Below, piece by piece: positions 37,356 through 39,161 of a stretch of 46,543 nt of DNA. Position 1 is the stretch's first letter; every line of letters starts with the position of its first letter. The position numbers were made by a program, and so were the translations under genes. Under the pieces are notes generated by a model, which saw nothing but the letters and a program-made list of their open reading frames with translations, did no database searches and was not told where the DNA came from. The DNA comes from a bacterium (lineage in GTDB: Bacteria > Planctomycetota > Phycisphaerae > Phycisphaerales > UBA1924): positions 1 to 46,543 of the forward strand of contig JANSXG010000005.1 in NCBI GenBank assembly GCA_024743075.1. Reading direction: 5' to 3'.

Positions 37356-38552
37356 ATGACCGTTGCCGACCGCTTCAAGCCCTTCGGAACCACCATCTTC
37401 GCCGAGATCACCAGCCGGGCGGTCGAAGCCCAGGCCGTGAACCTTGGCCAGGGCTTTCCCGATTTCGACGGGCCGGAGTTCATCAAGCTCGCCGCCAAGC
37501 GGGCCATCGACGAGAAGCCCAATCAATACGCCCCGATGGGCGGCGTCCCGGAGTTCACGAACGCTATCGCGAGCCGCTGGCAGCGCGACACCGGGCAGGC
37601 GATCGACCCGAAGTCGCAGGTGACCGTGACCGCCGGCTGCACCGAGGCGATCCCCGCGACCACCCTCGGCCTGCTCAACCCGGGCGACGAGGTGATCCTG
37701 TTCGAGCCGTACTACGACTCCTACCCGGCGTCGCTGGCGATGGCGGGCGCGAAGCCGGTGTTCGTGACGCTGCACGACCGGGGCGGCTCGTTCGCCTTCG
37801 ATGAGGCCGAACTGCGCGCCGCCGTCACCTCGAAGACCCGCGCGATCATCCTCAACACTCCCCACAACCCGACGGGCAAGGTGTTCAGCCGCGCCGAGCT
37901 GGAGCAGATCGCCGGCGTCTGTCGCGAGCAGGATTTGCTGTGCATCTCCGATGAGGTGTACGACCGGCTGGTGTATCGCGACGAGCACAACCCGGAGGCC
38001 GAGCACGTCTCGATCGCGTCGCTGCCGGGCATGGCCGAGCGCACGATCACGCTGAACTCGCTGGGCAAGACCTTCAGTCTCACCGGCTGGAAGATCGGCT
38101 GGGCCATCGCCTCACCGGAACTGACCGAAGGCATCCGCGCTGCGCATCAGTATCTGACCTATGCCGTCTCAACGCCGATGCAGTACGCGGCGTCGGAAGC
38201 GCTCGGCGCACCGGGCTCGTACTACGAAGAGCTCACCGCGACCTTCACCGCCCGGCGCGATGCGCTCGCCGCGGCTCTCGAGCGCCTGGGCTTCAAAGTA
38301 AACCGCCCGGCCGGCGGCTACTTCATCCTCGCCGACCACCGCGGCGTCTCCGAACCGCTTGGGCTGAAGACGGACGTCGAGGTCTGCCACCACCTGATCG
38401 AGCACGCGGGCGTGGCGACCATCCCGCCGACGGCGTTCTACGACCACAAGCAGCGCGGCCAGCACCTGCTCCGTTTCGCGTTCTGCAAGACGCAGGAGAC
38501 GATCGACGCGGCGGTCCAGCGGCTCCAGAAGTTGGCACGAGCGGGCGTCTGA
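37356..38552 (+). CDS. class I/II aminotransferase (PLP-dependent)
   Basis: A 398-residue fold-type I aminotransferase. It shows NLGQGFPDFDGPE (typical of the kynurenine/methionine/DapC-like branch), NTPHNPTGKVFS, Asp199 and Tyr202 in ISDEVYDRLVY, the PLP-binding Lys238 in SLGKTFSLTGWKIGWA, and the C-terminal Arg in HLLRFAFCK that holds the substrate carboxylate. The same branch includes methionine aminotransferase, glutamine transaminase K and succinyldiaminopimelate aminotransferase; the true substrate cannot be read from sequence. A candidate promoter lies just upstream. It is divergent from mdh and converges on a non-coding region. Confidence 0.92.
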   Translation: MTVADRFKPFGTTIFAEITSRAVEAQAVNLGQGFPDFDGPEFIKLAAKRAIDEKPNQYAPMGGVPEFTNAIASRWQRDTGQAIDPKSQVTVTAGCTEAIPATTLGLLNPGDEVILFEPYYDSYPASLAMAGAKPVFVTLHDRGGSFAFDEAELRAAVTSKTRAIILNTPHNPTGKVFSRAELEQIAGVCREQDLLCISDEVYDRLVYRDEHNPEAEHVSIASLPGMAERTITLNSLGKTFSLTGWKIGWAIASPELTEGIRAAHQYLTYAVSTPMQYAASEALGAPGSYYEELTATFTARRDALAAALERLGFKVNRPAGGYFILADHRGVSEPLGLKTDVEVCHHLIEHAGVATIPPTAFYDHKQRGQHLLRFAFCKTQETIDAAVQRLQKLARAGV

Positions 38553-38564
38553 CATGCTCGATGC

Positions 38565-38603
38565 AAAAAAGAAACACCCCGCCGAGGATGCCACGGCGGG
38601 GCG
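38565..38603 (-). terminator. strong intrinsic terminator in the convergent region, pointing left
   Basis: CCCCGCCG (38577-38584) pairs perfectly with CGGCGGGG (38594-38601) around a nine-base loop. On the minus strand it is followed by TGTTTCTTTTTT. The T run is on the minus side, so it ends a leftward transcript from the region 38604-38975; on the plus side it may also stop aminotransferase transcripts. Confidence 0.78.
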
Positions 38604-38637
38604 TTTGGCTAACTGAATTCTCAAGGTAGCCGTAGCG

Positions 38638-38684
38638 GGCTGCGCGTGATCGCAGCACCGTCGCACTGCGTCAGCCGCGCAGCC
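38638..38684 (-). ncRNA. long bulged hairpin, possibly part of a structured RNA
   Basis: GGCTGCGCG (38638-38646) pairs perfectly with CGCGCAGCC (38676-38684). Inside, TGA and CGCAG pair with CTGCG and TCA, with one bulged T and a GC bulge. The loop is ten bases. It overlaps the end of a 13-codon reading frame on the minus strand and lies just before the leftward terminator. The strand is inferred from that terminator. Confidence 0.4.
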
Positions 38685-38712
38685 ACCTCGTTGCGTCACA
38701 AAGATTGTTCAC
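38671..38712 (-). CDS. possible 13-codon peptide with a near-perfect ribosome-binding site
   Basis: On the minus strand AAGGAGGTG, a near-perfect Shine-Dalgarno sequence, is followed by a GTG and a frame reading MNNLCDATRWLRG then TGA. It is too short to be recognised as any protein. It could be a leader peptide whose translation alters the hairpin it overlaps, or chance. It is listed because the ribosome-binding site is among the strongest in the window. Confidence 0.2.
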   Translation of the reverse strand: MNNLCDATRWLRG

Positions 38713-38975
38713 TGGACCACCTCCTTCGCTAAGCGTGTCCCGATCGTTGCCCGGTGACCTTTTACGAGTGGCGGGCGAACGCTCGGATGGATCCTCCCGG
38801 CCCCGTCAGGCCGGGCTCAACGCGCATGGGCGTGAACCGCCATGCTCGTCGGGGCTCGCTCGCCGCCTGCCCGGGGGTTCTCCCCGGACCCGGACGGCCG
38901 CGCTTTCCCGATACCCAAGTATCGGAGGATCCGGGCCGGGTTCAACCAGAATTTCTAAAAACCCGGCGCGGGGCG

Positions 38976-39161
38976 TCAGTCTTCGAGCTCGTCGAACGCC
39001 CCCTTGGCGTCTTCCTCGTCGATGTACTTCTGGAAATCCCCGATCTTGTAGGAGACGAAGCAGAACACATGGTGCAGCGTCACCCACTCGATGTCGCTGG
39101 GATCCTTCTCGATGTCCTGGCGCAGTCGGTTGAGTTCGGCGAGCAGTTTCTCGGCTTTCAT
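38976..39161 (-). CDS. small acidic helical protein, unknown
   Basis: A 61-residue protein, not recognised. It reads as a helical protein: KAEKLLAELNRLRQDIEK, a short WVTLHHVFCFVSYKIGDF segment, and an acidic end. There is no signal peptide. The ATG at 39159-39161 lies after the stop of the ASPIC-repeat gene by about 70 bases on the same strand, so it may be its distal partner. Its codon use and amino-acid pattern are protein-like, but there is no family evidence. Confidence 0.6.
   Translation of the reverse strand: MKAEKLLAELNRLRQDIEKDPSDIEWVTLHHVFCFVSYKIGDFQKYIDEEDAKGAFDELED

Follow-up and report, generated by a model that had tools for sequence, protein, structure and literature searches.

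Evidence for a conserved structured RNA with an extended Shine-Dalgarno sequence and a mini-ORF in the Phycisphaerales

A putative transcription unit between convergent genes

The window (the whole stretch of DNA analyzed here, 46,543 nucleotides) contains a region, 38553-38975, flanked on the left by a rightward class I aminotransferase gene (37356-38552; Pfam PF00155) and on the right by a leftward ORF of 61 amino acids (38976-39161, minus strand). A previous reading of the sequence alone had described this region as lying between convergent genes, and the annotation agrees. The 61-aa ORF has no match in Pfam and NCBIfam searches; in 39 of 72 loci, however, a homologue (59-82% identity) with the same orientation lies directly upstream of the RNA described below. 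The ORF can thus be viewed as a conserved small protein, as yet unnamed.

The sequence-only reading had also proposed that the region harbors at least six hairpins and a strong leftward intrinsic terminator. The hairpins were found, and folding is strand-biased: the leftward strand has a folding energy of -218.5 kcal/mol (z -5.8, with none of 100 shuffled sequences folding as well), whereas the rightward strand folds more weakly (z -3.1). The terminator (38566-38606, minus strand) looks real, as a stem of 8-13 bp (38572-38606) is followed by TTTCTTTTTT. At the other end of the region, a -35 element, TTGAAC (38940-38945, minus strand), can be read directly, and a -10 element, GATACT (38918-38923, minus strand), was recognized by recurrence of the motif in relatives; transcription would start near 38912. 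Most relatives have, ~175-270 nt before the start codon, a promoter pattern of the form TTG[CA].. / GATA[AC]T with a spacing of 16-17 nt. From these promoter and terminator signals we infer a leftward transcript of ~340 nt (38570-38912, minus strand).

From 5' to 3', all on the minus strand, the predicted RNA contains a structured 5' domain (38729-38912) with helices P1, P3, P4 and P5, defined by the consensus in relatives; a strong Shine-Dalgarno (SD) sequence, AAGGAGGTGGTCC (38714-38726); a mini-ORF of 13 codons (VNNLCDATRWLRG) with a GTG start and a TGA stop (38671-38712), in a frame that is kept in relatives; and a covarying 3' hairpin, P6 (38638-38684), with CGACGG at its apex and the stop codon within it. 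Both the near-perfect ribosome-binding site and the 13-codon frame whose end overlaps a long hairpin had been noticed in the sequence-only reading, and both are present.

Because GC-rich sequence folds easily, one may ask if the region is simply a chance collection of hairpins without function. Covariation, presented below, refutes this explanation, and single-copy conservation, the promoter and the maintenance of the frame also argue against it, so that its probability can be considered negligible.

A second explanation is that the RNA still controls a neighbor gene in cis, as a leader or attenuator. The combination of a leader-peptide-like ORF, a hairpin and a terminator is suggestive, as is the frequent presence of the conserved 61-aa gene upstream (39/72 loci). 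Attenuators of the trpL type resemble the window RNA in that a short ORF ends within a hairpin and a terminator follows. However, the window RNA has no controlled gene after it, its codons are constrained as RNA, and it lacks a run of a single amino acid. When a conserved downstream gene on the same strand, the hallmark of riboswitches and cis-regulatory leaders, was sought in 71 loci, the largest gene family reached 5 loci only. Therefore, the RNA appears to be a unit of its own rather than a leader, and the earlier comparison with a leader peptide that no gene follows is supported. In the window the neighbor gene is convergent, the RNA has promoter and terminator signals of its own, and the upstream gene cannot be attenuated by an RNA that lies after it. 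Control in cis is, hence, largely refuted, and we regard it as very improbable.

Conservation and covariation

BLAST comparison with 60 relatives revealed a single conserved block made of the SD, the mini-ORF and the hairpin. A covariance model of this core (R1: SD, mini-ORF and CGACGG hairpin) was built from 15 seed sequences, including the window copy, and used to search beyond the window, as the sequence-only reading had recommended. R1 matches were obtained for 229 of the 400 genomes examined within the order, and for 123 of 163 genera, almost always in one copy, bearing in mind that related genomes are not independent and that model E-values are rough. In the window, R1 scores 69.8 bits (E 5.4e-15), a value to be read with the window copy being among the seeds. 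About 40% of the sampled genomes of the order gave no match, which may reflect genome incompleteness, strict filters or real absence. Weaker single matches were detected in further families of the class, and planctomycete copies outside the order scored up to 54 bits, clearly above the ~20-22 bits obtained with the SD only. The core thus shows covariation and single-copy occurrence, the two traits of a new Phycisphaerae RNA family.

Searches with an exact 17-mer, AAGGAGGTGNTCCAGTG, gave a consistent picture: 25 of the 392 genomes searched in the phylum contain it, each a single time (two genomes for the reversed control), and every one of these 25 matches is followed by a frame of 11-19 codons. 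Two members of the order (loci L026 and L031) retain the SD and the mini-ORF with degenerate or rearranged hairpins; they are possibly decaying or variant forms.

In a MAFFT alignment of 15 sequences, both sides were changed in 11 of the 16 pairs of the 3' hairpin, a result matched by none of 500 shuffles. When 77 copies were fitted to the model, double-change cells numbered 152 versus 51, with the caution that a fitted alignment leans towards its own structure. Covariation was also found in the 5' domain, in hairpins P4 (38796-38815, minus strand; loop GACG) and P5 (38740-38786, minus strand; apical loop with GUCAC): across relatives, 95.7% of their cells are paired, and double-change cells amount to 116 compared with 27.5 in shuffles (0/500). 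Altogether, these comparisons make it nearly certain that the RNA of the leftward strand is genuine, structured and conserved, and that its mini-ORF has been maintained.

The 5' domain also contains conserved unpaired motifs (GGAGAACC, CGACGACC and GCGATGAGCC), and its GACG loops are repeated. Such an ornate, covarying domain, in an RNA for which no target in cis was found, would be appropriate for a trans-acting sRNA or for an orphan riboswitch-like sensor. The 5' domain would then sense a ligand or a protein, the target would be another mRNA or a protein rather than the ribosome, and translation of the mini-ORF would only set the stability of the RNA or expose a seed. However, the most conserved stretch of the RNA is not a seed but the SD complementary to 16S rRNA, and the fixed position of the stop codon and the maintenance of the frame suggest that translation itself matters. 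We therefore consider this explanation unlikely, if still worthy of attention.

Potential pairing with 16S rRNA and within the RNA

The SD can be extended to AAGGAGGTGGTCCAG (38712-38726, minus strand), which is complementary, with one G-U pair, to the 3' tail of 16S rRNA, CUGGAUCACCUCCUU. The tail was taken from relatives, the 16S 3' end of the window's own assembly being missing. Allowing G-U, 65 of 77 copies can form 16-18 contiguous pairs with the 16S tail, and 75 of 77 can form at least 13; by a generous measure, the SDs of 31 ordinary genes of the window form 4-10. Within its own genome, AAGGAGGTGNTCC has one exact copy, located at the extended SD. Counts with one mismatch were 13, versus 27 for the reversed control, and the single exact match was therefore used alone. 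Sequestration of the SD by an upstream CUCUUU strand was also considered: it is possible in some copies, but it is not conserved.

Another segment with potential 16S pairing, CTACGGCTACCTTG (38622-38635, minus strand), lies just 3' of the P6 hairpin and is antisense to the helix 45/linker region of the 16S rRNA of relatives, with a 14-nt match. About half of the copies from the window's own family have CTACGG at this place.

Complementarity to the tail and, in part, to helix 45 raises the possibility that the RNA acts on 16S rRNA itself, in 3'-end maturation, protection or assembly. That 75 of 77 copies can pair with it over at least 13 bases agrees with such a role, as does the antisense segment after the hairpin. 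The latter is, however, missing in most other families, and its variants do not clearly track G/A differences in 16S rRNA; for these reasons, pairing with helix 45 was rejected as a general feature and kept only as part of this alternative. In addition, a start codon at normal spacing and a kept frame point to initiation. An action on 16S rRNA seems, in consequence, rather improbable.

Pairing within the RNA was detected between the P5 loop, which is the last loop of the 5' domain, and codons 4-6 of the mini-ORF across relatives. In the window, the two strands of the predicted pseudoknot can be read directly as GUCAC in the P5 loop (38754-38758, minus strand) and GUGAC in codons 5-6 (38695-38699, minus strand). 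Loop and ORF covary in relatives, with a mean helix score of 14.16 compared with 12.90 ± 0.29 for permuted partners (0/1000). Examples of loop/ORF pairs that change together are GUACAG/CUGUAC, GUCAC/GUGAC, GUACAUG/CAUGUAC and CAUACA/UGUAUG. A pseudoknot around the ribosome-binding site, the arrangement expected of an RNA that traps the 30S subunit, is thus supported by covariation; in the window copy it consists of 5 bp only, and a good match between loop and ORF is missing in some relatives.

The mini-ORF itself is constrained. In all 77 copies, the frame comprises 10-14 codons and its stop codon falls within the hairpin; start and stem are separated by a distance divisible by three in 76, and the offset of the stop is identical in 71. 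These regularities suggest that the mini-ORF is translated. The peptide has the consensus VxxCDCTKGLRx, and the CDC-K-G-L motif is common within the order. A functional micropeptide gene whose expression is controlled by RNA structure could explain both the motif and a frame kept in 76 of 77 copies. Yet in the codons of the motif, even the third positions are fixed: cysteine is encoded by TGT 105 times and by TGC once in the mini-ORFs, whereas the genes of the window use TGC 165 times and TGT 52 times. Because the P5 loop pairs with codons 4-6, the pseudoknot explains why these codons are fixed as RNA. Furthermore, the peptide is completely different in other families and phyla that possess the same architecture. 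A micropeptide gene is accordingly a poor candidate, albeit one with slightly more in its favor than an action on 16S rRNA, and translation probably yields the peptide as a by-product.

Similar architectures and a possible role in translation initiation

The Rfam scan advised in the sequence-only reading, run on the window and on 20 planctomycete loci, detected no known family at gathering score. The best permissive match in the window was Ms_IGR-5 (RF02471), with 23.4 bits (E 0.0009-0.002) and a gathering score of 45; CC2171 (RF01867), with a gathering score of 75, yielded 20.3 bits in the window and 21.6-29.1 bits in relatives. Both sub-threshold matches lie on the leftward strand, start at the SD and extend to the terminator.

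CC2171, a Caulobacter sRNA of the Alphaproteobacteria, carries AAAGGAGGUGAUCCAGUG and a mini-ORF (of 21-25 codons in five gathering-level matches), hairpins and a terminator. The window RNA shares the traits of extended SD, GTG mini-ORF, terminator and lack of a following gene. However, the planctomycete 5' domain is not recognized in CC2171, and the hairpins differ. Homology between CC2171-type RNAs and R1 beyond the SD is not supported by R1 scores in Alphaproteobacteria, which are mostly at SD level (~20-32 bits). Ms_IGR-5, an sRNA of Actinobacteria, also resembles the window RNA in having GGAAGGAGGUGGUCC, then GAGGUGGCUG, then a terminator, although our interpretation of the consensus would give it a TTG start codon at a longer spacing. 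CC2171, Ms_IGR-5 and the planctomycete RNA have the same SD-plus-mini-ORF architecture, which may stem from descent or from convergence, any homology beyond the SD being putative. The proposal of a candidate new RNA must be qualified in this light: covariation, single-copy conservation, the promoter and the mini-ORF sustain it, but RNAs of the same architecture have already been catalogued in other phyla, without function.

Ribosome-protected reads have been reported for Ms_IGR-5 in M. abscessus and M. smegmatis (PMC4974804). As many non-coding RNAs carry ribosome footprints (PMC4974804), this observation provides weak support. The Ms_IGR-5 transcript has also been detected in Streptomyces (PMC8079986, PMC8780764). 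The Rhodopirellula-1 motif resembles the window RNA in being listed for Planctomycetes, along with Proteobacteria, and differs in being listed as cis-regulatory, without Rfam number (PMC2864571).

In GTDB genomes, the same 17-mer was found in at least 118 stretches from Alphaproteobacteria, Planctomycetota, Acidobacteria, Krumholzibacteria, Gemmatimonadota and Myxococcota. Among the matches listed, a frame of at most 26 codons follows the 17-mer in 79 of 80 loci examined. An Rfam scan of 17 of these loci detected CC2171 in five and Ms_IGR-5 in one, an Acidobacteria record (L056), at gathering level. In Hyphomicrobiales, pairing of the ORF with downstream sequence was no better than with permuted partners (10/200). 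Rhodobacteraceae loci (L045-L124) contain an ACCUCC strand that resembles an anti-SD, mostly 47-63 nt past the stop; in most of 34 copies, it could pair with the SD of the same RNA. Different RNAs may therefore sequester their start region with different parts.

Pseudoknots in the mRNAs of ribosomal-protein operons, those of S4 (alpha operon) and S15 (rpsO), trap the 30S subunit. The window RNA is similar in that a pseudoknot surrounds the start site of a frame that would be translated; it differs in having no ribosomal-protein gene, no downstream gene and no known protein ligand. Promoter and terminator signals, a covarying 5' domain, an SD of ~16-18 bp, a frame ending in a hairpin and a covarying pseudoknot, all in the same unit, lead us to propose tentatively that the RNA is a free-standing, translation-operated switch that targets the ribosome, an interpretation to which we give somewhat less than an even chance. 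The extended SD would serve as docking site for the 30S subunit, and the pseudoknot with codons 4-6 would sit where the mRNA must enter the channel, so that the folded RNA might keep the 30S subunit trapped or idle and the start site from full engagement. Opening of the 5' domain would allow translation of the mini-ORF, 30S capture and translation competing with the pseudoknot. By geometry, translation would melt both the pseudoknot and the hairpin with the stop codon, and the RNA would be reset or destabilized. The output, presumably in trans, could be capture of 30S subunits or sensing of initiation capacity.

The existence of a single-copy, order-wide RNA that has long complementarity to 16S rRNA, and that no conserved gene follows, suggests that bacteria devote an RNA to translation initiation. 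One can speculate further that the planctomycete RNA, CC2171 and Ms_IGR-5 represent a bacteria-wide, previously unrecognized class of ribosome-capturing RNAs, in which the whole 16S 3' tail would be paired, the mini-ORF would be locked intramolecularly, and free 30S would be sensed or titrated. The lock would be the P5 loop paired with codons in the window RNA and the anti-SD mimic in Rhodobacteraceae. This generalization is attractive, as it would tie two catalogued and unexplained Rfam sRNAs to one architecture, but we consider it doubtful.

The same 17-base extended SD is also found in viral contigs (IMG/VR; L251-L305), where longer ORFs follow it in 47 of 55 cases. As the extended SD precedes ordinary phage genes, its length by itself may signify no more than a strong start; in cells, the sequence is used by the mini-ORF RNA. 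The viral contigs also reveal families of phage genes that carry the full complement of the 16S tail.
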